Source: Sipunculus nudus
Taxonomy: Eukaryota; Annelida; Sipuncula; Golfingiida; Sipunculidae
DNA length: 64,000 bases
Assembly (NCBI GenBank): GCA_026874595.1
Contig: CM049313.1
Location: 26,472,008-26,536,007, forward strand
Reading direction: 5' to 3'
The notes beneath the pieces were generated by a model. It was not told the origin of the DNA, searched no databases, and saw nothing but the letters and a program-made list of their open reading frames with translations. Below, in pieces: positions 333 through 60,434 of this stretch; position 1 is the stretch's first letter; every line of letters begins with the position of its first letter. The position numbers and the translations under genes are program-made.

Positions 333-1561
333 CGGATCTACGGTAATGTAATCTTGCATTGGGTCAAAGATTTCTTAATAAATATGACCATCATTTATGA
401 AAGCTCAGTACAGTTGGCTTGTATTGAATAAAAAATAATATGGAAACACCCGTTTCCTTGATCTTTTGCTATATTTGTATCTGCCAAAACAGAGTTTTGC
501 GGATACTATGTTTTCAGCCCACCGCTGCTGCCGCTGCCACCGCCGCCCCCCGCGTAGGTGTCCGGAAAACTCCTCCGTAACCGCTGGGCGGAATTTTACG
601 AAACCCGGGATTATGTTCAGGTCACATGTGAACTGCTGCGCCCCGATTTTGTTTTGACCTCTGACCTTTCCTCTGCGCTCTGCATCCGTGTGTGCGTCTG
701 TTTCCACACATAAACCCACATATCTCGGGAACCGTTTGACGGATCAGGAAAATTTTTTTGCACAAATGTAGCCCTTGGAAAGCTTTATAACATACACAAA
801 AAATGGTGGCGCCACCTGCAACCATGTTTGCACAGTGTCCATCTGTTTGTCTGCCTTGGGTTAAAATCACTCCTATCTCTGCAGTTATTTGACTAATTCA
901 CCTGAAATTCGGCATGCGTATACATCCTGGATAGCTTTTCTGATTTTATGACAGGTGGCGCCACCTACATTCATGTTTACGCTGCAGACATCCAAGTTCA
1001 TATCTCGGGGAACCGTTTGACAGATTGGGCCAAAATTTTGCATGTGTATAGATCTCACATAGCTCTCAGACCATCATTCACTGTTTTAACCAGACATATA
1101 TGATAAGAATATATGGCAATGTAGAAAGTTTAAACAAAATTGGCATATAGGTTCTGCAACAATTTTACTAGAAGTTGTGAATTGCAGCCCATGATGTCCC
1201 AGGTCATGGATTAATTTTTAACTCATATGGCCATATATTTAACTTTTGAAAACTTAATTACCTTCACACATTATTTGTTTATGAAATGGAACTTTTATAT
1301 GACACTTACCATAGGCCCATTTTTCCCCTTAGTGCATCACTAAATCTTTTCAGGCCAAAGGTTTCATTTATTACACAGTCCATATGCTTTAGCTCATGTC
1401 CATTATTCTATAATTTATAGAGTTTCATTTAAGCTGGGCCATTTTCTCTTAGCTTTTCAAATGGTAATATACATGGAAAAACCAAAAGAAATAAAATTAT
1501 TTTGCAGTTACTAATATTTTCCAAACTTCAGCTGAGCGACGTGACCCATAGGTCCCTTGTT
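333..1561 (+). mobile_element. Family B element, 3' part, split by an HPE insertion
   Basis: Bases about 345-476 match 15509-15650 and bases about 1064-1561 match the later part of the 14498-16140 copy, with a different element (477-1063) between them. The right end has CAGCTGAGC, then GTGACCCATAGGTC, then CCTTGTT at 1529-1561. About 110 bp of the family present at 15650-15760 is missing around the insertion, so insertion was accompanied by a deletion or recombination. It is non-coding. Confidence 0.7.
477..1063 (+). mobile_element. Hairpin-ended Helitron-like element (HPE), 3'-truncated copy
   Basis: The copy begins with a hairpin whose arms are GTATCTGCCAAAAC and GTTTTGCGGATAC around AGA (477-506). 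This is followed by a GC-rich stretch and a core with GGTGGCGCCACC at 805 and 954. It is closely related to the copies at 56622 and 58646 but lacks their 3' hairpin and CTAG end. No intact coding sequence is present; the short open frames in it have diverged between copies. Confidence 0.75.
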
Positions 1562-1566
1562 AGGCA

Positions 1567-4141
1567 TTTTTAGCTCAGCTGACTATAAGTCATCTGAGCT
1601 ATAGTCGTGGTCCATTGTCTGTCATCTGTCCGTCCGTCCGTCCGTCCGTCCGTAGATGTGGCACGTTTTGAAACCGTAAGACTTGGGAATCCAAAATTTG
1701 GCATAATGATAGCTGTCCCCAAGATCTCCTACCAAGCTGAAAACTGGGTCTTTGCGACTTTGTTCCTTTGAGAAATTAAGGAAAAACCTCAATTTTTTAT
1801 TAAAAACCTATTTTCACACTTTAGGGCTGCCTAATATCAAAACCACTCATCTGTTTTTCCTCATATTTACCATGAATATTCCTCTATATAGTTCCTATGT
1901 ACATGCCTGAAATTATGTCTGTATTATATAATTTAAGAAAGTTATGGGCCAGAACATAATGCATTTTGTAAAAAATCAGGAAAGATATTTGATCACTTAT
2001 CACAAAACTTGTTAAACCTATGGACTTTTTTTCAAGTAATATAACTTTAATTAATCAAAATTAAATTGTATACCCAAAATTAGATCAAAATCTTTTAAAT
2101 TTTTTAAAATATTAGCAAAAACAAAAAATTGGTACCTTAAATTTTGCCTAACTTTGACCATGGCACTTTTTTTCTTGTAAGTACTGTGGATTTAATTTTC
2201 TCAGCATGTTTTTGTTAGCATTTTGTCTGTTAACACCAAAAATTTGAAACCAGTTGATCAAAAACTGTAGATTTTATTCAAGTTTTCAAGCACCATGTAA
2301 CATTGTTTACATCAGGCTAGTGTTATGCAGTTTGCAAGAGCTCAGCTCCCCAGCTTAAGCTCTCAGTTCCTAAAATTTGGCATACAATTAGATGTCTCTA
2401 AAATTCTCACCATGCCAAGAAATTGGTCACTTGGACTTAATACCTTTGAGGTATTAATGAAAAACTTCATTTTTCAATTAAAAACCCGTTATTACACTTC
2501 AATACTGCCTAATATCAAAACCACAGATCTGACTTTAATCATATATAATATACATGTTTTTCAATACATTCTCTGTGCACATGCCAGAAATGATGTCAGT
2601 ATTGCGTAATTGTTTTAAGTTATGGGCCCAAACATAATGCACTTTGTAAAAAAACAAGAAATATATTTACTCCCTTAACAAGGGGCTTGCTGAAGCTAGA
2701 GATTTTTTGTCAGGGATGTAAGATTATTTAATCAAGATTCAATTGAATACCCAAAATTAGTTCTGAATTTTTAAAATTTTATAAGTTATTAGTATAAATA
2801 TAAAATTAGTACCTTAAATTTTGCCCAACTTTGACCATTTCACTTTTGTTTAATGTGAGCTCTGTTTATATAATTTTCATATCATGCACACACAAGGATT
2901 TCAGCTTTTTAGTTTAGAAAGCTGAAAGAAATTGGCCAAAAATTGTAGCTTTTATTAATGTTTTTATGAGACCATGTCAGACCTTGGCTCTCTCCAGCCA
3001 CTCTTGAGTCACCTGTATGTTGACCTTGTTGAACTTTCAGCAAATTGTGCACGCTTGAGGCGAGGCAGATACCCGGGCAGCAAGGCAGCTTATGGCCAGC
3101 CACAATTGATCCAGGTGTCCAACCCAACTCATCAAGTAGTTTTAACCAACAACATAACAATAAATTAATCAATTTTTATTGGTTTTTAATAACAAATTAA
3201 AGAAAAATAGAAAAGGAATTTGTTAGTTTATATTAATAGGGAAATAACTTGCAGTTACTGATGATATAAGAATCTTGTATTGATGGATAGAATGTCACGT
3301 ATTCCAAATAACACCATGCAGTCACCTATTGCATTTTTCAGTTCAATTTTAATAATAAAAAGTAAATCATATTATTCATTACTATTCATTAGGGATCATA
3401 TGAAGGAAATTAATGATAGACAAAGATGCAGTTGATAATATTAATCTAGATTCCTACTGTGTCTAGTGTGTACATTGATGTGAAATGAGTCCAAATAAAT
3501 ATATCACATTTATTTTTTTTTTAATATAAATAAAAGCCATAAAACCAGGTACTTATGATCATTATTTAAATGTGTGAATTTTGTACATTCTGGATTCTCA
3601 ACACCATTGTTTGGTGAAAACTGAATAAATACCAGACATGGTGGGAATACTTTGCAATTGTATTTAAATACGAATATGAATATGTACTCCATTATAAAAT
3701 TTCTTGCATAAAGAATGGGAATTCAGGTAAAAATGAAAGTATATGAGTACCAGTGCAAATACTTTCCAAATGTATTCATGAATGCATTCATGAATATATT
3801 CTTTAATATTATTTTAATAATCATTTCAGTTATATTTCATTTTAAAAATCATACGATTCTCTTATTATTTTTAATAAAAATTATATCTGGGACAATATTT
3901 GTAATTTTTTTTAATAAATAGTTAAACTCTTATACTATATGTTCTGCTTATAAGTTATATGGCCAAGTCAAAATCTGTGTGACAATAGTACTCCATTTGT
4001 TAATAAAATAAATGAAATCAATTCTCTTCTCTGTCTCCAATGTACTATCAAAATCATACATAAGCTAAACTACAACAACTCATAATACAGCTTATACTTA
4101 TTACCACACAAAACCAGCATGTGCCTCATTTCTAAATCATA
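1567..4141 (+). mobile_element. Family A element, lacking its last ~50 bp
   Basis: The 5' end TTTTTAGCTCAGCTGACT forms a hairpin (AGCTCAG ... CTGAGCT at 1571-1599, inner stem TGACT/AGTCA) followed by TATAG and a (GTCC)n tract at about 1629-1654. The body is colinear with 4142-6802 throughout. It stops at the sequence AAATCATATTTTTA, where the next copy begins, so the CAGCTGAGC end is missing. It is non-autonomous: no transposase, Rep or helicase frame is visible. Confidence 0.85.
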
Positions 4142-6802: not shown

Positions 6803-8922
6803 AAATGCTTTTAAACAATGTAGATTCATGATTTTAGATATTCCTCATGCCAGGCAATGTTTCCAATCACAGGTATACAGCTCTCTGTGGGTATATAAAG
6901 ACGGCTGTACATGGATTATAAATAATTGGTATCCATAGTCAAATTAATTCAAGATTTTGCCTTCAGTGAGATGTATCTGTATTACAATTATGTATTCAAT
7001 ATGCATCTGTATTAATTTTCAGTGAACCTGTGAACTAATGCGATGGTGTGGCGGCGTTTGTCTTCTGTACTTTTACCCATACTATTTTGAAAATGATTGG
7101 AGCTAGCATCATGAAATTTAATGCAAAAAATTAGCCATCTGAAAATTTTCTTAAATTTTATAGAGAAAAAGCTAAAAAAAACCTTTAAAAATCTTCTCCT
7201 CCGAAACACTCGAGCCAAATTGTTCAATATTTCACAGAAATAATCTTTTATACCATCTCCCTCTATATTGTTCAGGAAGTTGAACTTAGTCATCTGTCCA
7301 AAAAAGCATACTAAAATGACAGTCTCAGAAACAGCCAGAGCTCTATCATCACCAAATTTTTTGCCAGTGTTGGTCACATGAGTCATATATGAAATTCAGG
7401 TATTGGTGGCGCCACCTGAATTGACCTATTTTTGTACAGGGGTCATTTATAAATATAGTCATCTGAACATTAATCCATTAATTGGTTGAGTTGTGAAAAG
7501 CTTAAGTTGGTCTTATGGCCATTATTATGTCTTTTTCAAACTGAGGACTGCAATAGTGTTCTTCTACAAAATTATTATTTCAATTATATCTTCTGTAACA
7601 TTGCACAAAAATTATTCTTAGGTGGCCTTGTTCAAGTTTACCAGAATGATTTTTTGCAGAACTATTGGACCTTTAACAATGAAAGTACTGCATCTTTTAT
7701 TATTCTAGATATTTTGATAAAAAGTTTATAAATATCTCGGCTTGAAAAAAGAAGTTTTAACCAAAGTCTTTCAGTATGTGCACAGATATACCAACAGGCC
7801 AAGATTGAATCTGTATCTTTAAATAGGTTGAGAAACTGCCAACTGTTTCAGATTTGGGAACAGATCAAGAGTTCATTCAGTGCAGCCAGATATAGGTCAA
7901 GAGATCAATCAGTGCAGCCAAGCACATGGCATGTGATCACCTCATGGGTGACATGTGAACACCTCATGGGCACCATATGATCACTTCATGGGTTTCATGC
8001 TCCTCAGGGCAGGGCCCCTGCAAGAGCTTATGCAATGGTGTGGCTACTATTTCAGATTTGGCAACAGGCTAGAGGTAAGTCTGGATCTATTTATAGCTCT
8101 GTCAGACTGCCAACTGTGTCAGATTAGGCAACAAGTCAAAGAGTTCACTCAGTGCAGCCAGGTATGGGTCAGGAGTTTACTCAATGCAGTAGCTGCATTC
8201 TATTTATAGCTTTGGCAGACTGCATACTGCATCAGATTTGGCACCAAAGTTCAGCCTGGATATATTTATAGCTTTGGCAGAGTGCCAACTGTGTCAGACT
8301 ATGCAACAGGTCAAGAGTTTTACTCAGTGCAGCCAGGTACAGGTCAAAAGTTCACTCAGTTTAGCCAGGTGCAGGTCATGAGTTCACTCAGTGCAGTAGA
8401 CTGAGCCAGCAAAATTGTCACAGTTCACTCGGGGCAACTGCCTTTCTCACCTAATCCTGGTCAGCCCCATGCATCAGACTCAAGGTAAGTTTGATGTATT
8501 GGCCTGATATTTTGACCTGTCTATATGTCTTTGATGGCTTTCTCGTTCACAAGACAGGTGTCGCCACCTACAATGACTTTTGCACAGTGTATGTGCCTTT
8601 TTATTTCTACAGAGGAATTTGTAATATCAGCCTGAAATTGGGCATATATATACTTATCGAATAGCTTTGTCTGAAATTGGGCATATGTATATATCTCTGG
8701 TAACTTTGTTGTATACAAGACTGGCAGTGCCAGCTACAATCATTTTTGTGTTGTGTGCACCCATGGCAGAATTTCAGCAGTGATGTTTGTGTAATTGTGT
8801 CTTATTCAAAATGTTTAGTACTTGCATTGTTCATATACATGAGAAGTAATGGTCCAGCATTGAAGCATTATACCTGGTGTATTTCCATATGCACAGGTTC
8901 GCATTAGGCCTATAGGCCTTGT
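6803..8922 (+). mobile_element. Family C element, 5' part replaced; intact 3' end
   Basis: The sequence is colinear with 37735-39878 and, in its later half, with 48800-49682. An internal family-C 5' end (AGTGAACCTGTGAACTAATG) sits at about 7016, and the element closes with CACAGGTTCGC at 8892-8902, the palindrome AGGCCTATAGGCCT at 8906-8919 and TTGTTT. GGTGGCGCCACC occurs at 7405. The core is a run of diverged repeats with the phrase AGAGTTCACTCAGTGCAGCC. No protein is encoded. Confidence 0.8.
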
Positions 8923-8931
8923 TTTTTTTGG

Positions 8932-18414: not shown

Positions 18415-19560
18415 TGTCTCCCCTCCCAATGGGAAGAGACATATAGTGTTTGGTCTGTCATCTGTCATTTTCGTAGTCGGCGGCATGGTTGTCGTCGGTG
18501 TCTGTGTCATATTTAGTGAACACAATAACTTTTTAACATGTCTACATTTTTTCATGAAATTTTAAATATAAATTGTTTCTACCAAAATCTCGGACAAGTT
18601 CGAAAACTGGTGACCTTGACCTTTATCATTAAGGTCAAATAGGCCAAAATAGAATTTTTTGGTGAACCCATTACTTTCGAAGTATCACATATTTTTCCTC
18701 AAATTTGAAACATTAAGTGTATTGATCACCTTCTTTGAGGAGCTTGACAATTGGTGACCTTGACCTGGGTCTTTGAGGTCAAATCAGCCAGAAGAGATAT
18801 TATTTGTGAATATCATCACTTTTGAACCCCTTGACATATTTACTTGAAATTCAACTTTTGAAATGTCTCTACCAATACCGTGGATAAGTTAAATAACCAG
18901 TGACCTTGACCTTATCATCAAGGTCAAGTAGGCATAAATAGAATTTTTTCATGAACCCTTAACTGTTTAAGTATTGCATGTTTTTTTCCTTAAATTTGAA
19001 ACACTAGTTATTTTAATCAAGTCCCTTGAGGAGCTTGAAACAGGTGACCTTGACCTGGATCTTCAAGGTCAAATCAGCCAGGATAGAAATTATTTTCGAA
19101 TGCTATAACTTTTGAACCACTTGATATATTTTCATGAAACTCAGCTTGTGAATTGTCTCTACCAGTATCTCAGACAGGTTAAAAAAAAATGGTGACCTTG
19201 ACCTTCATCATCAAGGTCCAATAGGCCAAAATAGAATAATTTGTGAACCCCTTAACTTTAGAAGTATCACATATTTTTTCCTCAAATTTGAATCACTAAT
19301 TGTTTTAATCAAGTTCCTTGAGGAGCTCGAAACCTGGTGACCTTCACCTGGATCTTCAAGGTCAAACCAGCCAGAATAAAATCTTGGATCACTTCATAAC
19401 CTGGGTACCTTCATCATCATCATACAAGGTCAGATCTTTAGAAATCCAGGATTTAAATTAACACCAAACTTTTGAAGGGGTCCATTTTCCCCCTCAAAAT
19501 TGGGAAAGTGAGGCTTGTATAGTCAAGGGAGACATCGGTTGTTTTTGTGTCACAAAAACC
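18415..19560 (+). mobile_element. Family E element (TGTCTCCC ends)
   Basis: The 5' hairpin has arms TGTCTC and GAGACA (18415-18441) and is closed by TATAG. The core is a tandem array of units of about 145 or 290 bp carrying TGACCTTGACCT at about 18613, 18757, 18900, 19042 and 19192. The right end has GGGAGACA at 19527-19534, complementary to the left TGTCTCCC, followed by a perfect inverted repeat GTTTTTGTG-T-CACAAAAAC at 19541-19559. It is non-coding. Confidence 0.75.
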
Positions 19561-20322: not shown

Positions 20323-20350
20323 GTCAGTGAATCTTTAAGACTGCCACCAC

Positions 20351-22926: not shown

Positions 22927-22929
22927 TCA

Positions 22930-23490: not shown

Positions 23491-23497
23491 TTGAACC

Positions 23498-23900
23498 ATC
23501 CAGGTGCAGGTTAAGAGTTCATTCTGTGCAGTAGCTGCAGAGAGCATTTCATTCTGGGACACAAGGGGTAAATGCCTTCCTCACTTAAGCACTCAAGAGA
23601 AGTTTTATTGGCCTGATATTTTGACCTGCCATGCATCTTTGATGGCTTTCTTGTTCACAAGACTGGTGGCGCCACATACAATGACTTTTGCACAGTGTAT
23701 GTGTCTTCTTATTTCTCAGGACGGATTTGATATATCAGCCTGAAATTGGGTATATTTATACATATTTGATAGCTTTGTTTTATACAAGACTTGTGGCGCC
23801 ACCTACACTAATTTTTGCACAGTGTATGTCACTGCATATTTCTCAGTAGGGGTTTGATATATCAGCCTAAAGTTGGGCATATGTATACATCTCGGATAGC
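23498..23900 (+). mobile_element. Family C fragment (3' core)
   Basis: The phrases GTGCAGGTTAAGAGTTCATT and TTTGCACAGTGTATGTG, plus degenerate GGTGGCGCCACA/C palindromes at about 23665 and 23788, align with 8500-8700 and 49150-49420. It stops where the A2 element begins at 23901. Confidence 0.65.
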
Positions 23901-25755
23901 TTTTTAGCTCAGCTGGCTGTAAAGTCATCTGAGCTATAGTTGTGGTCCTTTGTCCTTTGTCCAGCCGTTCCCCTATTAACAGGGCACGTTTTGAAACTGT
24001 TGGACCTATGAATCCATACGTTTGCATACAGTTTGATGTCCCCAAATCTCCTACCATACCGAAAATTGGGCCAGTAGGCCTTGGTTCCTTTGAGATATTA
24101 AGAAAAAACCTCCCGTTTTCCATTAAAACCCATTGTTACAATTTAAGATAGCATAATATCAAAACCACTGGTCTATTCTTGTTCATATTTAGTATTTGTA
24201 TTCTTCTATACATTTTCTATTAACATACCAAAAATTTGGTCAGTATTGAGTATTGTTTTGAAGTTATGGGCCCAAATATAATGCAATTTTTAAAAAATCA
24301 GGAAATATATTTATTTACTTAACATGAGAATTGCTGAAGCTGGAGACTTATTTCTGGGATATAACTTTATTTAATCAAGATTCAATTGTTTACCCAAAAT
24401 TAGATCTGAATTTTGCAAATGTTTTATGTTATTAGCATAAATAAAAAATTAATATCTTAAATTTTGTCCAACTTTGGCTACGGCACATTTTTTCCCTGTG
24501 AGCACTGTTGATTTAATTTTCAGAGCATATAAAAAAGGATTTAATCTTTTTAATTTTCGAAATTTCAAAGGAATTGATTGAAAAGGGAAGCTTTTATTCA
24601 AGTTTTCATACACCATGTCAAGTGTTGTTCACATCAGGCCCACCTAGTAGTACAGCCTTCACTTGTTTTATGTAACCCTCTACAGGCAGCTTGCCTTGGC
24701 TCAGCTTGGCCACTACCAGCAGGCTTCCCCTTTGCCCTGCACTCCCCCCCCCCAGCTGGTGCATAAACTAGTTGAATGTTATAATTTTCTGTATTTGATT
24801 CATGTAGGCTATGCTACATTTTAGATTTTGTATTGTACCACCAGGGTTACAATGATTAAAGTGCACATTTAATCTTGTCCACAAAGGGATTTACTGCTAT
24901 ATGAAAGTATGGATGTTCATCAGATAAGTAATTCTTTACTTCAGAAGAGTAAAACTTCACCAGGTGTGAAATTGACTATTAATTCCAGTAAATAATTAAA
25001 GCTGAGATAGATATTAGCACAATGATGTTGTTTGCCCTCATTCAACCTACAGTGTGTATACTTTGTTTGAAAAGATGGTTTTATTTTATCAAATTTACTG
25101 AATCTTTAATATCGGTGAATAAAATTAAGCATGTACTGAAAATGCCAATGTTTAAAACTTTTTATTAATGATTCAAGGAATAATCTTGAAGATGCATGGT
25201 TGTGGCATTATTTTCTTTTAAATTCAGTTTAAACATTTGTGATTTAAAAATAATAAAATATATGTGTATGCATAATATGACCCAATATGAGCTACATTCT
25301 GGATAAATTATGATTGCAACTTAGAATTCTGATATTTTAACTTATATTTTCAGTTTTTTTCATTACAAATTTATAAAACTTGTAAATAAAAAAAAATGAA
25401 TCTGATAAAAAACTATTAATAGAAAAAGTGGATATGCTAAAGAAATGGGCTTAAATATAAAATTAAATGCATTAGTCCATTCTCTCCACTTGCCTGTCCA
25501 TCTGTAATTTTTTCATATGCATCACAGTATCTCAAAACTGTTACTGTTTTTCTTCATGACAGTCTTGTCAGAGTATTAGTTTTGCAATCATATATTTAGA
25601 TCTTTATTATAACCAAGTAGGAGGGCCTCTTTCCTCTTAGCTTCTCATATGCTTGTATATATGAAAAAACATTACAATAGAATATTTTGCATAATTTGCA
25701 TTTGCAAAAATTTCAAACATCAGCTGAGCGCCATGACCCATGGGTCCCTTGTTTG
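23901..25755 (+). mobile_element. Family A2-type element, complete (about 1.85 kb)
   Basis: The left end TTTTTAGCTCAGCTGGCTG with hairpin and CTATAG is followed by a GTCC-poor tract and AACAGGGCACGTTTTGAAAC. The right end is CAGCTGAGCGCCATGACCCA followed by GGGTCCCTTGTT. The copy at 60803 shares its whole left 1.45 kb. It is non-coding. Confidence 0.78.
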
Positions 25756-32612: not shown

Positions 32613-32760
32613 TTTTTAGCTTAGCTGACTATAAGTCATCTGAGCGATAGTCATGGTCCATTGTCCGTCGTCCGGCCGTCCGTTAACAGGGCACATTTTG
32701 AAACTGTTGGACCTACGAATCTGAAATTCAGCATACACTTAGATGTTCCCAAAATAATTT
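32613..32760 (+). mobile_element. Family A 5' fragment
   Basis: TTTTTAGCTTAGCTGACTAT, a hairpin with CTGAGCGATAG, GTCCGTCGTCCGGCC and ACAGGGCACATTTTGAAAC mark the first ~140 bp of a family A/A2 element. It then breaks off. Confidence 0.7.
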
Positions 32761-32769: not shown

Positions 32770-33480
32770 ATGAATTATTTTTTTCTAGTCAGCTATCATG
32801 GGAATCTACAAATGAATGAACAAAGCTATCCAAGACAGATAAACATGCCAAAATTTCAGGCTTAACATCCATCCCACTCATCAGATATGAGCAATAATTA
32901 CCCAAAGCAAATAGATGGATGGACACCACCCAAAGAGAACTGCAGGTGGTGCCACCAGTCTTCAATACAAGATGGAGGTATCAAAGATCTATGGACATGC
33001 ACAATTTCAGGCCAATATGGCAAATCACTTCTGAGAAAAGGGCATTTATTTATTCTGTGAAAATCGAAAGGTTGGTGGCACCACCTGTCTGGTCTATGAA
33101 AAAAACTATCCAAGATGTGTGGACATGCCAAATTTCAGAACAATACACTGAACAACTCCTGAGATAGGACCAATTTTCACCTAAATCAAATGTACAGTTG
33201 GACGCCATACGAAAACAATGGCAGATCGTGCCACCAGTCTTGAATACATTATGGAGGTATCCAAGATTTTATGGACATGCACAATTTCAAGCCAATATGG
33301 TGGATCACTCTTGTGAAAAGGGGATTCATTTATACTATTAAAACAGTAAGGTAGGTGGCGCAACCTGTCTGGTTGATGAGAAAAATCTCCAAGATGGATG
33401 TACATGCCAAATTTCAGACCAACACATTGAACAACCCATGAGATATGAGCAATTGTGACATCAAAACAAAACCATCTTGT
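32770..33480 (+). repeat. Tandem repeat block with degenerate GGTGGCGCCACC motifs
   Basis: Units of about 290 bp share TGGACATGCACAATTTCA, GCCAATATGG and GGTGGCACCACCTGTCTGG. Palindrome variants lie at about 32945, 33073, 33228 and 33355, about 128, 155 and 127 bp apart, the same alternation as in the HPE at 58646. The block ends about 100 bp before the CEP120 exon at 33584. Confidence 0.6.
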
Positions 33481-34196: not shown

Positions 34197-35893
34197 TTTT
34201 TAGCTCAGCTGACTGAAAGTCATCTGAGCTATAGGGATCACCCTTTGTCCGTCCGTCCGGTCGTCCGGCCGTCCATTCGTTAACAGGGCACAAATCGTAA
34301 CATCTGGGCCTGGAATCTTGCATTTTGACATCCCGGGAAGTCCATGAAAAATCTCCTTGGAAACCTGAAATTAGGTCTCTGTTACCAATATCCTTTGAGC
34401 TATGGGGCTCCGAAGTACCCCCAGAATAATGCAAATTTTGATACAAAAGCTCAAGTATCTAAATATCTACTGCATTGATCACCATGATTCTTTGCATGAA
34501 TATTTATAATGGGATGTTCCATTTCTTCTTGCAGACTGGTGGCCCCACCTTTATTTTTTCAAATTTGTATGAATTTTTTTCTCTTTTTTTTCAGACCTGC
34601 AATGAAACTGTCACTGTTAACAGGGCACAAATCGTAACCACTAGACCTGGAATCTTCTAACTTAAAATACAGGGAGGTCCATGAAAAATCTCCATGAAAA
34701 CCTGAAATTAGGTCTCTGTTACCCATATCCTTCGAGCTATGGGGCTCCAAAGTATCCCCCAGAATAATGCAAAATTTGATTCAAAAGCTCAAGTATCTGA
34801 ATAACTAGTGCATTGATCACCATGATTCTTTGCATGAATATTGATCATGGGATGTTCCGTCACTTCCTGCAGACTGGTGGCGCCACCTGTTTTTATCCAA
34901 TTTTTACAAATTTTTTTCTCTTTTTCAGACCTGAAATGAAACTGTCATCTGTTAACAGGGCACAAATCGTAACCATTGGTCTGGAATCTTCAAACTTAAT
35001 GTCAAGGGAGGTCCATGAAAAATCTCCTTGAAAACCTTAAATTAGGTCTCTGTTACCCATATCCTCTGAGCTATGGGGCTCAGAAGTAGCCCATCCCCCC
35101 CCCACCCCCACCCCCAGATTAATTGAAAATTTGATAGGAAAGCTCTAGTATCTGAAAAACTAATTCATTGATCACCATGATTTTTTGCATGAATATTGAT
35201 TATAGAGTGTTTCTTCAGTTCCTGCAGACTGGTGGTGCCACCTGTATTTTTTTTCAAATTATTACACATTTTTTTCTCTATTATTGAGACCTTCAAAGAT
35301 TTGGTCATCTGTTAATAGGGCACAAAATGTAACTACTAGACCTATAAAATCTTCCAACTGGACATCCCTGAAGGTCCATGAAAAATCTCCATGGAAACCT
35401 GAAATTAGGTCTCTGTTACCCATACGATCCGAGCTAAGGGGCTCAGAAGTACCCCCCCAGAATAATTGAAAATTGGATACAAAAGCTCCAGTATCTGAAC
35501 AACTAATGCATTGATCAAGTGCTGTGATTCATTGCATACATATTGATCATGGAGTGTATCATCAGCTCCTGCAACATGATGGCACCACCTGTTTTTTTTT
35601 TCGAATTTTCACAAATTATTTTCTTTATTTTTGAGACCTTCAAAGATGTAATCATCTGTTAACAGGCCACCAATCATCACTGTTGGACCTAGATTTTTCT
35701 TACTTGACATCCTGGGAGGTCCATGAAAAATCTCCTTGGAAACCTGAAATTAGTTCCCTGTTGCCAATATCCTCCAAGCTATTCTTCAGTTGAATGGGGA
35801 TACCATCTTCAAAAATTTGCATTCATATGATAAAATTCCTTTTGTGAATGTCTTCCTTGTCAGCTGAGCATCATGATCCCTAGGTCACTTGTC
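34197..35893 (+). mobile_element. Family B element with ~340-bp tandem core
   Basis: The 5' end TTTTTAGCTCAGCTGACTGA carries the hairpin closed by CTATAG and a GTCCGTCCGG tract. The phrase AACAGGGCACAAATCGTAAC recurs at about 34282, 34620 and 34956, and in decayed form at 35314 and 35661, so the core is about five tandem units of 336-358 bp. The 3' end is CAGCTGAGCATCATGATCCC then TAGGTCACTTGT at 35862-35893. GGTGGCGCCACC is exact at 34876 and degenerate in neighbouring units. It is non-coding. Confidence 0.85.
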
Positions 35894-36303: not shown

Positions 36304-39300
36304 TTTTTAGCTCAGCTGACTATAAGTCATCTGAGCTATAGTCGTGGTCCATTGTCCGTCGTCCGTCCTTCTGTCCGTCCGTCCGTCTGTCTGTCCGTCC
36401 GTCCGTTCGTCCGTCCGTAGATGTGGCACGTTTTGAAACCGTAAGACCTAGGAATCCAAAATTTGGCATAATGATAGATGTCCCCAAGATCTCCTACCAA
36501 GCCGAAAACTGGCTCTTTGCAACTTCGTTCATTTGAGAAATTAAGGAAAAACCTCAATTTTTAGCGAACCTGTGAGCTTATGCGATGGTGTGGCGTTGTC
36601 CATCGTCTGTACGTTAACCCATACTATCTTGAAAACGGCAAGAGGTAGCATCATGAAATTTTATGCAAAAAATTAGTCATCTAAAAAACTATATCGGATT
36701 TTGCTTATTTTTTGGCTAACTGCATTTTCTTAGATTTTATAGGGAAAAAGCTAAAAAAGCTTTAAAAATCTTCTTCTCCGAAACTGTTCAGCCAAATTGT
36801 CCAATATTTCACAGAAATGATTCCTGGAATAATCTTTCTCAAGTTTGTTAGAATGGTTTAAGTTCAGTGATTTTTGGCCAAGTTACAGGAAGTTGAACTT
36901 AGTCATCTGTCCATAAAAGCATACTAAAATTACAATCTCAGAAACGGCTAGAGCTATCATCACCAAATTTTATGCCAATGTTGTTCACATGAGACATATC
37001 TGAAATTGAGGTATTGGTGGCGCCACCTGCATCGACCTTTTTTGTACGGGGGTCATCAGTGCCCGTATCATACTGACGGCTACAAAAAACTTCTTCTCTG
37101 AAACCATATTGCCAAATAGTTTAATATCGCACAGAAATGATCCTAGGGTAGTGCTTTCTGAAATTTGTTCAAATGGTCTAAGTTCAGTGACTTTTGGCTG
37201 AGTTATGGGAAGCTGAATTTAGTCATATGCTGTAACAGCCCATTTTAGCTCAGTGGCTACAAAGATCTTCTCCTCAAAAACCACTGGGCCAATTTCTTAA
37301 ATCTTACACATTACTTATCCTTAGATGTTGAGAATTCAAGTTTGTTCAAATGGTTTTGGTTCAGTGATTTTTGGCTGAGTTATGGGAAGCTTAACTTAGC
37401 CATTTTGCTGTATTTTCCCATATGAGTTATAAACCTGTAAAAATTTTTGACTGACCCTACTCAGGCCAGTTTGTTTAATATATTACAAGAATAATCCCCT
37501 GAATAATTCTTATAATAATTGTCTTTTATGGTTCCAAAGAATTTTGGCTGAATTATAAAGGTTCAATTGAGTCATTTTACCATATATGTTAGCTGTGTCA
37601 AGCAGATACACAGATACATCTAGATACATCTAGACTGGCACCAGTTTATCAGCATTTATTACATCATGCCTCTAGACATTTAGATTTCAGGTTATCTATG
37701 GTTAATATTGACAAGAATGTTTTTTAAAAGCTTTTAAAAAATGTAGATTTATAATTTTTAGATATTCATCATGCCGGGCAATGTTTACAATCACAGCTAT
37801 ACAGCTCTCTGTGGGTATATAAAGACATCTGTAAATGGATTATAAATAATTGGTATCCCTACTCAACTTAATTCAAGAATTTGCCATCAATGAGATATAT
37901 CTGTATTTTAATTTTGCATTCAATATGCACCTGTATTAATTTTTAGTGAACCTGTGAACTAATGCGATGGTGTGGCGGCGTTTGTCTTCTGTACTTTTAC
38001 CCATACTATTTTGAAAATGATTGGAGCTAGCATCATGAAATTTAATGCAAAAAATTAGCCATCTGAAAATTTTCTTAAATTTTATAGAGAAAAAGCTAAA
38101 AAAACCTTTAAAAATCTTCTCCGACGAAACACTTAAGCCAAATTGTTCAATATTTCACAGAAATAATCTTTTATACCATCTCCCTCAATTTTGTTCAGGA
38201 AGTTGAACTTAGTCATCTGTCCAAAAAAGCATACTAAAATGTCAGTCTCAGAAACAGCCAGAGCTATCATCACCAAATTTTTTGCCAGTGTTGGTCACAT
38301 GAGTCATATATGAAATTCAGGTATTGGTGGCGCCACCTGAATTGACCTAATTTTGTACAGGGGTCATTGGTCATCTGTACATTAATCCATAATTTCTCAG
38401 GAATAGCAGGAGCTACCATTCCCAGATTTTATACAATAATCTGTCAAATATCAAATTTTGTGGGATTCAGCTTATTTTTTTGCTATCTGCATTTACTTAG
38501 ATTTTATAAGGAAAAAGCTGACAATATCGTCGTCTTCTTGTAGACGGTCCAGCCAAATTGTTAAATATTTTACATAAATGATCCCAGAGGCAAGCCCTCT
38601 CAAGTTTGTTCAAATGGTTTGTATTTGATGAATTTTAGTGGAGTTACACAAATTTGAACAGTCATTCGGCCAAGTAAGCATACTGACATAGTACTCTCAG
38701 AAATGACAGAATCTAGCATTACCAGGTATTGTGCAAATGTTGGTCACATGACTCATATTTGAAGTTGTAGATTTAGTGGTGCCACCTACATTGACCTGTT
38801 TTTTATGGGCAAAAAACCTCATAATTTTAGCCTCTTTCAGCTTAATGATGAAACTGTCAAGTTGAATTGTTCAATTTTTCAAAAGAATTATCCTAGGACA
38901 TGGTTCCTTCAATCATATCAGAATATACTGAGTTTGTTGATTTTTGGTTGAGTTGTGAAAAGCTTTAGTTGGTCTTGTGGCCATTATTATGTCTTTTTCA
39001 AACTGAGGACTGCAATAGTGTTCTTCTACAAAATTATTATTTCAATTATATATTCTGTAACATTGCACAAAAATTATTCTTAGGTGGCCTTTGTTCAAGT
39101 TTACTAGAATGATTTTTGGCAAAACTATTGGACCTTTAACAATGAAAGTACTGCATCTTTTATTATTCTAGATATTTTGATAAAAAGTTTATGAATATGT
39201 TGGCTTGAAACCAATTTTAACCAAAGTCTTTCAGTATGTGTAAACAGATATACCAACAGGCCAAGATTGAATCTGTATCTTTAAATAGGTTGAGAAACTG

Positions 39301-42378: not shown

Positions 42379-43046
42379 TTTTTTAGCCCTCAGCTCATAG
42401 GATGATGGGCTATTGTCGTCACCCAAGCTGTCTGTCTGTCCATCCGTCCCTCTGTCCATCTGGCAACAGTCCGTCCCGTGTCCGTTAACTTTTACCTTGT
42501 GAGCGGGATATCTCTTAAAGGATTTGCCGTTGGAATTTTATATCATCAGTGAAGATGTATATCAACAAAATCTTGGTCAAGTGCGAAGGTGGGTGACCTT
42601 GACCTATTTTTCTTTGTTTTAGAGCTGATTATACATAAACACTCAGAAGCTTATATCTCAGGAACCTTTGTGTGGATTTTCACAAACTTACTATGATCAT
42701 TTGGAATGATGGTCGGTACGTGCTGCACAATTTTGGTGGCACCACCTATAATTTCTGGGTTTTTTTAAAGAATTTTTATCTGATTTTTCAGTTTTTGCCT
42801 TTTGTGCAGGATATCTCCAAAGGTATTCAACACAGGAATTTCATTTCTTCAGTGCTATTGCATGATCTTGGTCAAGTTCAAAGATGGGTGATCTTGACCT
42901 ACTTTTCAAGGTCACAGAGCTTAGTATAGGAAAAAACTTAGGAGCTTATTTCTCAGGAAGCATTTGGTGGATTGTTATGAAACATGGTACATACCTCTCC
43001 AATTTAAATTTATAACTGATTATCAGCTTTTGCTAATATTCTAGTT
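42379..43046 (+). mobile_element. Family G element nested in family F
   Basis: TTTTTTAGCCCTCAGCTCAT opens a hairpin-like start closed by GGGCTATTG, followed by a GTCTGTCTGTCC tract. The right end is ATTCTAGTTTT, after which family F resumes (CAGTGCAATGC). It contains GGTGACCTTGACCT at 42592 and a GGTGGCACCACC palindrome variant at about 42736. Confidence 0.6.
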
Positions 43047-47311: not shown

Positions 47312-49682
47312 TTTTTAGTGAACCTGTGAGCTTATGTGATGGTGCGGCATCGTGCGTTGTCTGTACGTTAACCATAGCTATCTCAAAAACGGCTGGAGCT
47401 AGCATCACCAAATTTTTTGCAAATAATCAGTCATCCAAAAAACTATATTAGATTTTGTTTATTTTTTTCATAACTGCATTTTCTTAGATTTTGTAGGGAA
47501 AAAGCTAAAAAAGCTTTAAAAATCTTCTTCTCCGAAACTGTCCAGCCAAATTGTTCAATATTTCACAGAAATGATCCCTGGAACAATCTTTCTCAAGTTT
47601 GTTCGAATGGTTTTAGCTGGGAGATTTTTGGCCGAGATACAGGAGGTTGAACTTTGTTAACTGTGCAAAAAAGCATATTAAAATTTAAATCTCAGAAACG
47701 GCTGTAGCTATCATCACCAAAATTTATGCCATTGTTGGTCACAAAGGTCATATCTGAAATTGAGGTATTGGTGGCGCCACCTGCATCGGCCTTTTTTGTA
47801 CAGGGACATCAGTGCCTGTATCACACTGAGGGCTACAAAAATTTCTTCTCTGAAGCCATATGGCCAAAATGTTTAATATCGCACAGATATGATCCTAGGG
47901 TAGTGCTTTCTGAAATTTGTTCAAATGGTCTCCTTTCAGTGACTTTTGGCTAAGTTATGGGAAGCTGAATTTAGTCATATGCGATAACAGCCCATTTTAG
48001 CTCAGTGGCTACAAAGGTCTTCTTCTCAAAAACCACTGGGCTAAATTCTTAAATCTCACACATTAATTATCCTCAGATGTTGATAATTCAAGTTTGTTCA
48101 AATGGTTTTGGTTCAGTGCTTTTTGGCTTAATTATGGGAAGCTGAACTTAGCCAGTTTGCTGTATTGTCCTCTATGAGTTATAAACCTGCAAAATGTTTT
48201 TTGACTGATGCCACTGAAGCCAGTTTGTTAAATAATTAACAAGAATAATTCCTACAATAATTCTTAATAATAATTGTCAGTAATGGTTCCACATGAATGA
48301 TTTTTGGCTGAATTATGGAGATTGAATCGAGTCATATTACCATATATGCTAGCTGTGTGATGCTGTTACATCTAGCCTGGCACCAGTTTATCAGCATCTA
48401 TTACATCATGCCACTAGACATTATGATTTCAGGTTATATTTGGTTAATATTGACAAAGTTTTTTTAAAAGCTTTTAAAAAATTTAGATTTATGATTCAAG
48501 TTATCATACCAGGCAATGTTACAATAATGGATATTCAGCTCTCTGTGGCTATATAAAGACAACTGTACGTGGATTATAAATTATTGGTATCCCTACTCAA
48601 CTTAATTCAAGAATTTGCCATCAATGAGATATATCTGTATTTAATTTTGCATTCAGTATGCATCCGTAATAATTTTACATATATTCCTGATTTTTTTATA
48701 AAAAGTCAGCTGAAAAGCATTTTGTATTGGGAAAATAAATTTCAAAGTTATTTCAAGTAGGGAACACTTTTGTGTTCAGATGGCAGCACTTGGTTTACCA
48801 TTGGCAGATTGCCAGTGCCTTGATGTTGGCCATTAGCCAAGATGATGTCATCTCTATAAATAGTTTTTGCACAGTGCCAGGATTGGAAGAAGTGCAGCCA
48901 GGTATAGGTCAAGAGTTCACTCAGTGCAGTAGCTGCATTCTATTTATAGCTTTGGCAGACTGCCAACTGTGTCAGATTATGCAACAGGTCAAGAGTTAAC
49001 TCAGTGCTGCCAGGTACAGGTCAAAAGTTCACTCAGTCTAGCCAGATGCAGGTCAAGAGTTCACTCAGTGCAGTAGCTTGAGGCAGCAATTTGTCACAGG
49101 TCACTCGGGGGGCCTTACTCACCTAAGCCTTGTCAGCCCAGTGCATCAAACTTTTGGGAAGTTTGATGTATTGGACTGATATTTTGACCTGTCTATGCGT
49201 CATTGATGGTATTCTCATTTACAAGTCAGGTGGTGCAATGTACATTGACTTTTGCACAGTGTATGTGCGTGCTTATTTCTACAGAGGAATTTGATATATC
49301 AGCCTGAAATTGGGCATATTTATACATATCGAATAGCTTTGTCGTATAAAAGACTGGTGGTGCCACCTACAATAATTTTTGCACAGTGTGTGTCCCTGCT
49401 TATTTCTCAGGAGGGGTTTGATATATCAGTCTGAAAATTGGCATGTGTATTTCTCTGATAGCTTCATTGTATACAAGACTGGTGGTGCCAGCTACAATAG
49501 TTTTTATGTTGTATGCACCCATGCCAGAATTTCAGCAGTGATGTTTGTGTAATTGTTTCTTATTCAAAATGTTTAGTACTTTCATTGTTCATATACATGA
49601 AAAGTAATGGTCCAGCATTGAAGCATTATACCTGGTGTATTTCCCAATGCACAGGTTCGCATTAGGCCTGTAGGCCTTGTTT
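47312..49682 (+). mobile_element. Family C element, complete (about 2.37 kb)
   Basis: It runs from TTTTTAGTGAACCTGTGAGC to CACAGGTTCGC (49650-49660), AGGCCTGTAGGCCT and TTGTTT. This copy lacks the internal C-in-C insertion seen at 7016 and 37941, so it shows the simple form of the family. GGTGGCGCCACC is exact at 47770 and degenerate at about 49228, 49360 and 49488. It is non-coding. Confidence 0.85.
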
Positions 49683-51421: not shown

Positions 51422-51528
51422 TTATTTGATGCCATTTATAACTATATGGTTGTTATTCAGCTTAATAACCAATTCAGTTGAATATTATGTCACTTTGGGT
51501 GAACCAGTATTCATTTATTTCCTGTTAG

Positions 51529-52540: not shown

Positions 52541-52805
52541 CCAGTAGACCTTTGTGCATGGCTTGGTTCAGTTTATATTCAGTTTGTGAGGAAACAGGAT
52601 GTTTCATTAGTGGAGATACATATTCTTAAATCAATCTAGTGGCACAGCTCTGTGGATCGTGCAGTTTATTTATTGCATACTTTGGCCAACTATGTATTAA
52701 AGTAATAGCCCAGATTAGAGCTTTTTTGGCCTCACATGAGAACTGTAGGTAAATTCTTGTACTATGGCACAAATTTTTATCCCTGAACCAGTGTTTCACT
52801 TGTCT
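52541..52805. other. CEP120 intron sequence upstream of a family C element
   Basis: Nothing beyond possible LINE remnants. Confidence 0.35.
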
Positions 52806-55800: not shown

Positions 55801-56621
55801 ACGGCTAGAGCTGTCATCACCAAATTTTATGCTAATGTTTGTCACATATGTAATATCTGAAATTGAGGTATTGGTGGCGCCACCTACATTGATCTGTTTT
55901 TTACAAGCGAAAATGTAATTTTAGCTTTTTCTAGCTTATACATTGTTTTGTGATGAAACTGTTAAGCTGATTTGTTTGAACATTACAAGAATTATTCTAT
56001 GGTAGGATTCTGCCAGTTTTATAAGAATAGATTGGGAAATGCAGCTTTAAAGAAGTACTGTAGCCAATTGAAAAAGGCTTTCTGTGTTTGAAAACAGATT
56101 TGACAACATGCTGAGTTTCAGCAGCCAAGTCAAGAGGTCACTCAGTACAGCCAGGTGAGGTCCTGACATCACCATAGCAACTGTCCTGGCTCTGTCTGGT
56201 TTCTAGACAATGTGTCTAGACGTGTAGACACATCGTCTAGACACATTGTCTAGACGCAGAAAGCCCAGATTAGAACTATTGGAACTATATTTTGTAACTG
56301 TTTGGAATAACTTGGTTTGCTTTTTTAGCGAATCTGTGAGCTTATGAAATGGTGTGGCGTCGTGCGTCATAGCTATCTCAAAAAGGGCAGGAGCTAGCAT
56401 CACCAAATTTTTTGCAAAAAATTTGTCATCTAAAAAATTCTATTGGATTTTGCTTATTTCTTGGCCAACTGCATTTTCTTAGATTTTTTAGGGAAGAAGC
56501 TAAAAACCATTAAAGATTGATCATCTCCGAAGCCATGCTGCCAAATTATCCCAATAATCCTCCCTGGCAAAAATAACATATTGGAAAAATCCTGACTGAT
56601 ACATGCTAGTTGTATTCGCAA
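52806..56621 (+). mobile_element. Family C elements (several starts) split by family A
   Basis: Three family-C starts are visible: 52806 (TTTTTAGTGTACCTATGAGC), 52959 (TTTTTAGGGAACCTGTGACC) and 56324 (TTTTTTAGCGAATCTGTGAG). The second is interrupted at 53127 and resumes at 55571 with TTTTAACTGCGTTTTCTTAG, matching the uninterrupted family at 36700. GGTGGCGCCACC lies at 55873. A local inverted repeat of GTCTAGACA motifs is at 56200-56255. Confidence 0.78.
53127..55570 (+). mobile_element. Family A element, complete, inserted in family C
   Basis: It starts TTTTTAGCTCAGCTGACT and ends GTCCCTTGTT. Both flanks are the same family C copy, and the insertion point is a T-run (TTTATTTTT on the left, TTTTAACTG on the right), where the uninterrupted relative has TTATTTTTTGGCTAACTG. 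This gives the length, about 2.44 kb, and shows no obvious target duplication beyond T. Confidence 0.88.
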
Positions 56622-57710
56622 AAACTCTGTTTGGCGGATACTATGTTTTCAGTCAGATGCTGCCGCAGCATAGGTTTCCAGAGAACTCCTCCATAACCAC
56701 TAGGCAGAATTTTTTTGAATTCAGGATTATGATTGGGTCACATGTGAACTCCTGTGCCCTCATTTTTGGTTGACCTCTGACCTTTCCTCTCTGCCCAGTG
56801 TCCATTTGTGCCTCTGTATCCATACATAAATCCACACATCTCAGGGATCATTTGACTGATCAGGCTAAAATTTTGCACAAATGTAGCTCTGTGATAGCTT
56901 TATAACATACACTAAAAATGGTGGCGCCACCTGCAACCATTTTTACACAGTGTTCATCTATTCATCTGCCTTGGGATAAAATCACTCATATCTCTGCATT
57001 GGTTGGACTTATCCACCTGAAATTTTACATGTGTATACATCCTGGATTGATTTCTTGATTTAATGACAGGTATTGTTACCTACATTCACGTTAATGCTGC
57101 AGACATCCAAGCTCATATCTCAGGAACCATCTGACAAATTGGGCCAAAACTTTGCATGCTTATAGATCTCACATAGCTCTTTATGGTCACGCCTCCTGCA
57201 ACCATTTTTGCACAGCGTCCGTTTGCCGTGGGATACATCAGTTTATACATCTTGGATAGCTTTCTGGATTTTGTGGCAGGTGACGCCTCCTTTATGTTTA
57301 CGCTGCAGACATCCATGCTGATATCTCAGGACTGGCTTGATAGATATAGATCATATATGATTGTATAGATCACACATAGCTCTTAAACATACACAAAATT
57401 GGTGGCACACCTGCAACCATATTTGCACAGCATCCTTCTGTTTGTCTGCTGTTGGATAAAATCACTCGTATACAAGCATTGGTTTGACTTATCTGCCTAA
57501 AATTTTGCATATGTATACAACTTGGATAGCTTTCTGGATTTTGTGGCAGGTGGCACCACCTACATTCACATTTCTGCTGCAGAAATCCATGCTAATATGC
57601 AACACACCTCACTTTATTTCCCCTTGCCACTAGATCCATGCCTCTCTTCACCCGTCCCACTCTGATTTCTGCGGATACACGTAGTTGCTTGTCGACTACC
57701 CGTATTCTAG
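56622..57710 (+). mobile_element. HPE Helitron-like element, both ends present
   Basis: The 5' hairpin starts GTATTCGCAAAAACTCTG and ends GGCGGATAC (56651). The 3' end has a hairpin of GTAGTTG and CGACTAC around CTTGT (57681-57699), then CCGTATTCTAG at the end, followed by T. GGTGGCGCCACC is exact at 56920, with degenerate copies further on. Left flank is family C and right flank family A2. It is non-coding. Confidence 0.78.
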
Positions 57711-60434
57711 TTTCTTTAAGTTATGGGCCCGAACATAATTGACTTTGTAAAAAATCAGGAAAAATATTTACTCACTTAACTTGAAAATTTTTGATGCTAG
57801 AGAATTTTTTCCCCAAGTATTTAAACTTTTTGAATTAAGATTCTATTGTATACCCAATATTAGATCTGAATTTTGTAAATTTTTTAAGGTATTAGCATAA
57901 AAATAAAATCAGTACCTTAGATTTTGCCCAACTTTGACCATGGCATGTTTTTTTACTGTGAGTATTGTTTAATTTTCACCGCATGTAAACATAAGTATTT
58001 AATTTGTTTAAATCTGAAATTTGATAATAAAAGGTTGAAAATTAAGCTAGTTATAGAATTTTTTCTTGAGGCCCTATTGTAGTGACTTGCTTTGTCCAGA
58101 TGCATGTTGGCCACTCCTGGTCACTGGAAGTCAGCTATGCCAGGGTCCTGATTTGTTACAGTGACTGGGGAAGATCCCCTGCTGTGACAGGTGAACAGTT
58201 ATTCTCATATCAAACCACCCCCCCCCCCTTCCCCACCAAGTGTTATGCAGTGATCGTTATTGTTTACCCTGTATTTCCTTAATTGTAATGGTGTTTCCAC
58301 TCTAATATACAGATTATTTTTAAATAGTAATTCAAGGAGTAATCCAAAAGATGCAATGTCATTATATAGCATTTTTAAAGAAATTAATTTTCTGTTAAAT
58401 AATTTTAGTAAATTAAAATATAACTAAACCCATCAGTATGCATAAATTGATAATATATGAGCCAAATCATGTATAAAAAAAGCACAATTTAAAATTGTTA
58501 ATTCTAAATCTAGTATTATTTCCAGATATATTTATTGTTTTGCAAATTAAAAGAGATATTGTTGTGGTTAAAAAAAACAAATACATTTATATGCATAATG
58601 TGTTGTTATCTAACAAAATTGAGATATATGATGATGAAATTATAACTAGAATACGGGTAGTCGACAAGCGACTACGTGTATCCGCCTAAATCAGAGTGGA
58701 ACGGGTGAAGTGAGGCATGGATTAAGTGGCAAGGGGAAATAGAGTGAAGTGTTGCATATTAGCATGGATGTCTGCAGCCAAATTGTGTATGAAGGTTGCC
58801 CCCCCTACCACAAAATCCAGAAAGCCGTCCCAGTTGTATACATATGCAAAATTTAAGGCAGATAAGTCAAACCACTGCATGTATATGAGTGATTTTAGCC
58901 CGTGGCAGACAATCAGATGGACGCTGAGCAAAAATGGTTGCAAGTGATGGCACCAGTTTTGCGTATGATAAAGAGCTATGTGAGAACTATACACATGCAA
59001 AACTTTGGCCCAATGTGTCAAACGGTTCCCAAGATATGAGCTTGGATGTCTGCTGCATAAACTAGAATGCAGGTGGCTCCACCTGTCATAAAATCAAGAG
59101 AGCTGTTGGGGATGTATAAACCTGTAAAATTTTAGCCAGAAATGTCAAACCACTGCCGAGATATGAGTGATTTTATCCCATGGCAGACAAACAGACAGGA
59201 GCTGTGCAAAAATGGCTGTAGGTGGCGCCACCAGTTTTGCCTATGTTATAAAGCTCTCCAAGGGCTACATTTGTGCAAAAAAATTTTCCTGATCGGTCAA
59301 ACGGTTTCCGAGATATGAGCTTGGATGTCTGCAGCGTAAACGTGAATGTAGGTGGCGCCACCTGTCATAAAGTCAGAAAAGCTATCCAGGATGTATACGC
59401 ATGCCGAATTTCAGGTGAATTAGTCAAGTCACTGCAGAGATATGAGTGATTTTAACCCAAGGCAGACAAACAGATGGACACTGTGCAAACATGGTTGCAG
59501 GTGGCGCCACCATTTTTTGAGTATGTTATAAAGCTCTCCAAGGGCTACATTTGTGCAAAAAAAATTTCCTGATCGGTCAAACGGTTCCCGAGTTATGAGC
59601 TTGGATGTCTGCAGCGTAAACGTAAATGTAGGTGGCGCCACCTGTTTCAAAATCAGAAAAGCTATCCAGGATGTATACACATGCCAAATTTCAGGTGAAT
59701 TAGTCAAGTCACTGCAGAGATATGAGTGATTTTAACCCAAGGCAGACGAACAGATGGACACTGTGCAAACATGGTTGCAGGTGGCGCCACCATTTTTTGT
59801 GTATGTTATAAAGCTCTCCAAGGGCTACATTTGTGCAAAAAAAATTTTCCTGATCCGTCAAACGGTTCCCGAGATATGTTGGTTTATGTGTGGAAACAGA
59901 CGCACAAACAGACGCAGAGCCCAGAGGAAAGGTCAGAGGTCAAAACAAAATCGGGGCGCAGCAGTTCACATGTGACCCAATCATAATCCCGGGTTTCGTA
60001 AAATTCCGCCCAGCGGTTACGGAGGAGTTCTCCGGAAACCTACTCGGCGGCGGCGGCGTGCAGCTGAAAACATAGTATCCGCAAAACTCTGTTTTGGCGG
60101 ATACAATTATAAATTAACATTTATATACAGATATATATGTTATATTGGGAATGTATATAAATTACAAAAAGCCAACCAATGATCATGTTAATAGTACTGA
60201 TTGTATGTTCACAAACTTCTCACATGCTACAGTTTCAACATTAGGACACATGGTCAGGTCACAAAATATTATTTGCAACTATTTCTTACTTATCAGTACA
60301 AACCAATCATGTCAACCAGCCATGGCCTATATTACTTCTTCCTCTCAGACTTTATCTCCATTTGATATTATTTTAGATTTTTACCTTCATGGTCAACTTC
60401 AGCTGAGCACAGTGACCCATGGGTTCCTTGTTTC
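57711..60434 (+). mobile_element. Family A2 element, 5'-truncated, split by HPE
   Basis: 57711-58645 matches about 9990-10590 of the 8932 copy. After the HPE it resumes at 60105 and ends CAGCTGAGCACAGTGACCCA then GGGTTCCTTGTT at 60402-60433, like the 11743 end. It has a C-run at 58220-58228. Confidence 0.75.
58646..60104 (-). mobile_element. HPE Helitron-like element, full length (1459 bp), minus strand
   Basis: Read on the minus strand, it starts with GTATCCGCCAAAACAGAG and a hairpin closing with GCGGATAC. It ends with the hairpin GTAGTCG-CTTGT-CGACTAC, then CCGTATTCTAG, followed by T. Plus-strand start 58646 (CTAGAATACGGG), end 60104. GGTGGCGCCACC is exact at 59221, 59351, 59500, 59631 and 59780, and one-off at 59072. 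AATTATAA flanks both sides, but related A2 sites carry both halves without the insertion, so it need not be a target duplication. Confidence 0.82.

Follow-up and report, generated by a model that had tools for sequence, protein, structure and literature searches.

Why should a single 12-bp palindrome recur again and again in one stretch of DNA, within repeats whose surroundings do not look alike? The question is raised by a stretch of 64,000 nucleotides of the Sipunculus nudus genome (GenBank assembly GCA_026874595.1, contig CM049313.1, positions 26,472,008 to 26,536,007; hereafter the window), where an earlier note proposed that the palindrome, GGTGGCGCCACC, is a short site kept or spread independently of its surroundings, with very ancient common descent as the alternative. 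Judged from profiles of the flanking arms, five of the six repeat families that carry the palindrome share descent from one core repeat, and the distribution of the palindrome is thereby explained. While descent in a known kind of element can explain where the palindrome lies, it does not explain its invariance in the main family, and this invariance beyond descent suggests a cis-acting site that is selected for in the source elements. With confidence only slightly better than even, we regard the palindrome as the best-kept block of an ancient core repeat in elements resembling HINEs (non-autonomous Helentrons), selected in the sources of new copies and putatively bound, as a duplex, by a protein for efficient copying.

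Abundance of the palindrome in the window and the genome

The 14 exact copies reported earlier are all present in the window, whereas none of 100 dinucleotide shuffles contained any (mean 0.00). When one mismatch was allowed, the window held 26 sites, against a mean of 0.01 in 100 shuffles. The near-copies reported at 23665 and 32945 lie exactly there, those reported at 33073, 42736 and 49360 lie at 33074, 42735 and 49356, and the one placed at 38774 turned out to be at 38775 with two mismatches instead of one. Altogether, 12-bp palindromes of any sequence occur 58 times in the window; GGTGGCGCCACC accounts for 14 of these, and the next commonest for five each. Based on its composition, the window should hold 0.0002 copies, not the 0.004 previously given, and the genome about five. 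In the whole genome (1.4265 Gb, 153 contigs), however, GGTGGCGCCACC occurs 111,729 times, compared with 14 times for the reversed-letter palindrome of identical composition, a genome count that the earlier note had called for. This mean of one palindrome per 12.8 kb would give five copies in the window, where 14 were observed. We also took 29 unselected places, set at round coordinates and totalling 203,000 bases of the chromosome-sized contigs; these gave nine exact and eight one-mismatch copies, with exact copies in 6 of the 29.

Variants with a single change were counted genome-wide with both strands pooled, leaving out the central C to G change. The commonest site of change is the CpG, with 45,683 copies carrying TpG or CpA and 7,561 carrying a central C to A change, and the rarest is the T/A pair (4,375). 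The outermost G/C is changed in 11,860 copies, and the second, fourth and fifth positions in 13,978, 12,010 and 7,722, respectively. The core is often lengthened on one side to TGYAGGTGGCGC, for which there were 62,948 strand hits.

Repeat families and common descent of their arms

We grouped 168 sites with at most one mismatch (118 exact) into families by arm similarity. Of these sites, 26 were from the window, 17 from the 29 unselected places and 125 from contig C1, the last taken from 39 places that were picked from a listing of the palindrome and cover 95 of the 100 exact sites listed. Family I comprises 114 of the 168 sites in alternating 130/149-bp units, family II 19 sites in 337-bp units, and family III, called HPE in the earlier note, 20 dispersed sites. 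Families IV, V and VI have 9, 3 and 2 sites, respectively, and one singleton lies in G+C-rich sequence and may be a chance occurrence.

Profiles of the arms were built without the palindrome, and 60 arm pairs were tested against nulls consisting of the same profiles at wrong offsets or strands; the ten pairs given in this text are those in which at most 3% of the nulls scored equally high. For arm A, the scores were 17.8 for families I and II (none of 148 nulls as high, the largest being 16.1), 15.6 for I and IV (none of 146, largest 13.3), 20.1 for III and VI (none of 158) and 11.0 for II and VI (none of 158). For arm B, the scores were 10.0 for II and IV (none of 142) and 11.2 for I and III (2 of 148). 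The five links without an equally high null, together with that between I and III, have one common polarity and connect five of the six families. Column shuffles on an earlier grouping likewise gave 0 of 300 for each of I-II, I-IV and II-IV, and a weak result for I-III. In the consensus arm A of five families, a CA(A/T)G-type block begins 25-27 bp from the palindrome and an A/T block 43-46 bp from it, although these words were picked by eye once the arms had been seen.

Considering that the arms match as profiles with the palindrome withheld, descent from one core repeat would account for the distribution. Given the homology of the arms, the idea that the palindrome spread by itself among repeats of separate origin is not supported and was rejected. 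Contrary to the earlier note, the carrier families are not unrelated; their flanks do fail to match on direct reading, but not when compared as profiles, and of the two explanations offered at the time it is ancient common descent that better explains the distribution. Two family VI copies (L058:5927 and L064:360) are alike on one side only, outward from the palindrome, as if an arm had been exchanged there.

Conservation of the palindrome in the main family

The palindrome is the best-conserved segment of family I. In an arm-only test, models were trained on C1 copies, and copies were then sought, with no selection for the palindrome, within the window as well as at the 29 unselected places. 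Palindrome identity was 0.884 for the 28 copies that one arm recovered and 0.862 for the 32 that the other recovered, compared with 0.71-0.74 for the arms, and none of 141 12-column runs was better than the palindrome. This first set consisted of 35 distinct copies, 26 of them from the window. For a larger test, 142 arm-found copies were collected and 137 from 24 loci were kept (26 from the window, 9 from unselected places and 102 from C1), where a C1 copy was retained only if its place held another exact palindrome, which was intended to counter the way in which these places had been chosen. One after another, the 12-column segments were masked and re-placed within 5 bases. For the palindrome this gave 1.02 mismatches of 12 over 136 copies (69 exact, 106 with at most one), while the 27 other 12-column segments had 3.87 on average and 2.45 at best, and chance placements of the palindrome had 7.36.

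To follow change over time, family I copy pairs, which are not independent of each other, were binned by arm distance, and palindrome distance was taken outside the CpG. From near to far (50, 172, 451, 639, 1,801, 2,872 and 3,195 pairs), mean arm distances were 0.030, 0.081, 0.128, 0.175, 0.252, 0.368 and 0.425, and palindrome distances were 0.030, 0.042, 0.063, 0.101, 0.123, 0.134 and 0.137. Six of the 27 other segments had a lower distance than the palindrome in the first bin, and none did in any later bin. In the 50 closest pairs the two distances are equal, which means an equal rate of change. A smaller pair test also reached a plateau, at about 0.16-0.20, and a nearest-neighbour version with 35 copies gave palindrome and arm distances of 0.100 and 0.065 (n=23), 0.136 and 0.158 (n=11), and 0.300 and 0.215 (n=1). 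Going by the plateau, the source lineages would have shared one palindrome, and the copies would have drifted once inserted. These data suggest that source lineages keep the palindrome while inserted copies decay. Of the earlier proposal, the part by which the site is kept better than its surroundings therefore holds for the main family, from both conservation and plateau, while the palindrome was not ranked first in families II and III and its independent spread is not supported, given the matching arms.

Left ends and Helentron features

Ten aligned left ends in the window begin with (A)TTTTTAGCTCAGCTGAC or a near form of it and contain an internal inverted repeat and a GTCC-like microsatellite. 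One of them lies at 1566-1653 (Table 1), and the others start near 4141, 8932, 23901, 27550, 32613, 36303, 53126, 60803 and 62294. All ten have TAGCTCAGCTGACT..AGTCATCTGAGCTA in common with small changes, a subterminal repeat with its complementary inverted repeat as in HINEs. Runs of (GTCC)n or GTCC-like sequence, also a HINE trait, adjoin the left ends and are eroded at 23901, 27550, 32613 and 60803. In the text of the oyster paper, elements that hold satellite-like arrays, and whose left ends bear GTCY, GTCC or GTCK microsatellites, are described as non-autonomous Helentrons (PMC7492417). The left-end model gave four further, weaker matches in the window, and at five sites both strands were matched at the same place; an exact 29-base word of the left end occurs 14,752 times genome-wide.

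The left ends are found close to the palindrome at four family II sites, where the first type begins about 20-25 bp past it in two sites (L012:362 and L056:1973) and a second type, GCCAAAAC..AGTTTTG, about 10 bp past it in two sites (L011:1278 and L035:727). In the window, palindrome arrays come after left ends at 32613 and near 483, while most palindrome units are not joined to a left end. Among 150 of 195 candidates scored in the genome, 143 matched the Helitron_like_N protein, with open frames of up to 2,426 codons. Two adjoining 2.6-kb copies at 1566-4146 and 4141-6756 are 92% identical and both begin with the same left end and GTCC microsatellite, and further copies lie elsewhere in the window.

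A putative site selected in source elements

In the reading that we favor, the five families would stem from one core made up of the palindrome, the block about 25-27 bp away and the A/T block about 43-46 bp away. Selection would act on the source elements that make new copies, and inserted copies would drift. The palindrome itself would be a double-stranded, dyad-symmetric protein-binding site, bound either by a host factor or by the replication protein of the element; the elements would need this site for efficient copying, and the arrays would multiply it. The data suggest that the carrier elements need the palindrome to multiply. In a more specific form, the palindrome could be an essential internal recognition site of HINE type, to which a dimeric protein of the host or of an autonomous Helentron must bind for copying, holding the 12 bases constant across diverged families. 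We put this form forward tentatively, as a proposal that is rather more likely to be wrong than right.

Several observations weigh against the favored reading. Concerning descent, the families were initially gathered via the palindrome, so relatives that lost it could escape. Alignment of consensus arms gave three pairs at p<0.003 (III-VI, V-II and V-IV) but missed I-II and I-IV, which the profile tests had found, and the arms must therefore have diverged far. The profile score of 8.5 between arm A of family IV and arm B of family VI (2 of 156 nulls as high) contradicts the common polarity, and family V has three weak, mutually conflicting profile links (1 to 4 of 146 nulls). Concerning conservation, arm-only palindrome identities were 0.850 and 0.867 in family II (5 and 10 copies), with 80 and 23 of 142 runs better, and 0.972 and 0.851 in family III (6 and 14 copies), with 5 and 43 of 142 runs better. 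In the larger family I test, 102 of the 137 copies came from the C1 training places, an overlap that affects the palindrome and the other segments alike.

The decay itself is also not uniform. At arm distances of 0.05-0.2 the palindrome changes at about half the arm rate, by which some protection of individual copies is possible; in these middle bins, copies may be weakly protected, or subfamily structure may play a part. When the palindrome was masked and not re-placed, the ratio of palindrome to arm distance was 2.03 near and 1.17 far, with the far ratio below the near one in 285 of 300 resamplings, a result that we attribute to indels beside the palindrome shifting its register. As for the elements, the polarity of the family I array after the left end near 483 is opposite to that after the left end at 32613, so that either left end may belong to the family I array and the structure of the element is provisional. 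None of the 143 Helitron-type matches was linked to these ends, and right ends were likewise unmatched.

Pairing, descent alone and host factors

In place of a protein site, the earlier note had also considered self-pairing. By this explanation, the palindrome would fold into a hairpin, or dimerize, in single-stranded DNA or RNA while rolling-circle copying is under way, or would seed tandem duplication. It is in line with the two family VI copies that match solely from the palindrome outward and, from the text of the bivalve papers, with oyster HINE right ends, whose palindrome is able to form a stem-loop (PMC7492417), and with the palindromes tied to repeat junctions in another bivalve satellite and conserved near the junction of DTC84 (PMC5139131). 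However, in two small tests, none of six copies folded as single-stranded DNA (four families) exceeded the shuffles in stability (z -0.69 to 0.44), and in 131 family I palindromes one dyad-keeping double change was observed where 3.0 were expected. Rfam searches returned nothing for the window at gathering scores or for 58650-60000 at E up to 5, and in the families inspected by eye the arms extend on both sides, by which the palindrome is not a terminus. We consider self-pairing very unlikely. Outside the CpG, the half of the family I palindrome that adjoins arm B carried 36 changes and the opposite half 22. Since the small tests gave no hairpin signal and both halves are constrained, it appears to be the base sequence, not pairing, that is kept. 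Such a sequence fits a duplex site for a symmetric protein, and it is from this fit that we infer the protein. Two related candidates, self-cleaving ribozyme repeats (retrozymes) and a terminal hairpin of the element, were rejected on the Rfam result and on the extension of the arms, respectively, the latter in spite of the two one-sided family VI copies.

Common descent alone, in which the palindrome has no function of its own and has simply survived well from an old satellite-like core repeat, agrees with the homology of the arms between families, with a palindrome that decays like the arms at the smallest distances (50 pairs, and 0.100 versus 0.065 in 23 copies), and with other segments being equally well kept in families II and III. 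This explanation is nonetheless unlikely, as none of the 27 other family I segments is as conserved and as the distance plateau is unexpected for a neutral relic, least of all for one with a central CpG, the transitions of which make up the 45,683 copies counted above. A host architectural or transcription-factor site (CTCF, E2F or a CACCTG E-box factor), of which individual copies are used by the host, could account for the halved rate of change in the middle bins, and the extended core TGYAGGTGGCGC agrees with what we take to be the central part of the CTCF motif. Yet both halves of the palindrome are conserved where a single CTCF site would need one, the CC that presumably lies upstream in the CTCF motif was not seen in the consensus arms, and in the closest pairs the palindrome is not protected; we give this explanation little credence. 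A mobile motif of prokaryotes or viruses was rejected, with a 16-mer found in 53 genome_contigs stretches where about 120 are expected (257 Gb, even composition). A 14-mer was found in 52 viral_contigs stretches; the loci behind both sets were counted, not read.

Features of the window

Table 1. Palindrome-bearing repeats and left ends in the window (mm, mismatch)
Feature	Position	Strand	Details
Family I array (130/149-bp units)	719..1066	-	Palindromes 805, 954; second left-end type GCCAAAAC..AGTTTTG upstream at about 483-510
Left end TTTTTAGCTCAGCTGAC..GTCATCTGAGCT with GTCC microsatellite	1566..1653	+	One of ten aligned copies
Family III core (dispersed)	7334..7464	-	Palindrome 7405-7416
Decayed family I array	8489..8722	-	Palindrome 8557-8568 (1 mm)
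Family I array	23634..23903	-	Palindromes 23665, 23792 (1 mm each); end adjoins element beginning TTTTTAGCTCAGC at about 23901
Left end (internal inverted repeat, GTCC microsatellite)	32613..32755	+	Family I array next
Family I array	32816..33470	+	Palindromes 32945, 33074, 33354 (1 mm each)
Family II array (337-bp units)	34279..35782	-	Palindromes 34538 (1 mm), 34876 (exact), 35231 (1 mm), 35578 (2 mm)
Family III core	36946..37097	-	Palindrome 37016-37027 (exact)
Family III core	38257..38404	-	Palindrome 38326-38337 (exact); relative at 38775 (2 mm)
Family V palindrome	42735..42746	.	1 mm; weak link to other families
Family III core	47700..47846	-	Palindrome 47770-47781 (exact)
Decayed family I array	49160..49540	-	Palindromes 49356 (1 mm), 49481 (2 mm)
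Family III core	55803..55884	-	Palindrome 55873-55884 (exact)
Family I array	56850..57602	-	Palindromes 56920 (exact), 57549 (1 mm)
Family I array (alternating 130/149-bp units)	58756..59878	+	Palindromes 59221, 59351, 59500, 59631, 59780 (exact), 59072 (1 mm)

Other repeats were also seen in the window. A tandem array with a 145-bp period at 18571-19382 has a unit size near that of the palindrome units but a different repeated word, TGACCTTGACC or its complement, which occurs in five units (18611, 18755, 18901, 19045 and 19193). A 46-bp tandem repeat lies at 26421-27039 (13.5 copies, 93% match), and an open frame of 229 codons at 30979-31668 gave a sub-threshold reverse-transcriptase match (RVT_1, 19.6 bits, cut-off 29.6). 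Elsewhere in the assembly, contigs that are not chromosome-sized (C60, C61, C62, C66, C72, C74, C75, C89 and C123) gave matches to oxidase subunit I (COX1), in frames 489 to 578 codons long. The two that were examined, on C60 and C123, are bacterial-looking, that on C123 being cbb3-like, and the assembly may therefore contain DNA of a cobiont or symbiont.

Comparison with known systems

In the text consulted, the literature does not settle what the satellite-like arrays of bivalve Helentron-type elements do, or what part is played by their few surviving motifs. A fixed, dyad-symmetric 12-mer with constraint at the level of the source turns this into a concrete question, namely which protein binds and whether a non-autonomous element needs the palindrome to multiply. 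The palindrome can also be used as a tag for tracing repeat families that hardly align. A possible parallel is the CENP-B box, a short protein-binding box that is kept within the diverging monomers of alpha satellite; the arrays described here are, by contrast, short and dispersed.

The elements are similar to Cg_HINE of the Pacific oyster in that an inverted repeat and a GTCC-type microsatellite occur together in the left end, and probably also in their short satellite-like arrays, in that related ends can hold unrelated arrays, and in that two motifs are common to otherwise divergent monomers, as far as the text of the oyster paper describes them (PMC7492417). They differ in the palindrome, the letters of which are absent from that text, figures and supplements aside. 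In full texts searched with the same scope, the 12-mer appeared in one unrelated paper and in none on bivalves, and its central 10-mer was absent from the bivalve literature text searched. From the text on bivalve satellites, BIV160/Cg170 monomers are widespread in bivalves and have diverged greatly while retaining two motifs, and the pearl element CvA has a microsatellite-like segment where the palindrome would be (PMC5139131). By description, and not by motif letters, the Sipunculus repeats may be compared with BIV160/Cg170, where conserved motifs stand within divergent monomers, and with the pearl element DTC84 and its conserved palindrome (PMC5139131); here the palindrome and the 25-27-bp and 43-46-bp blocks stand within 130/149-bp units.

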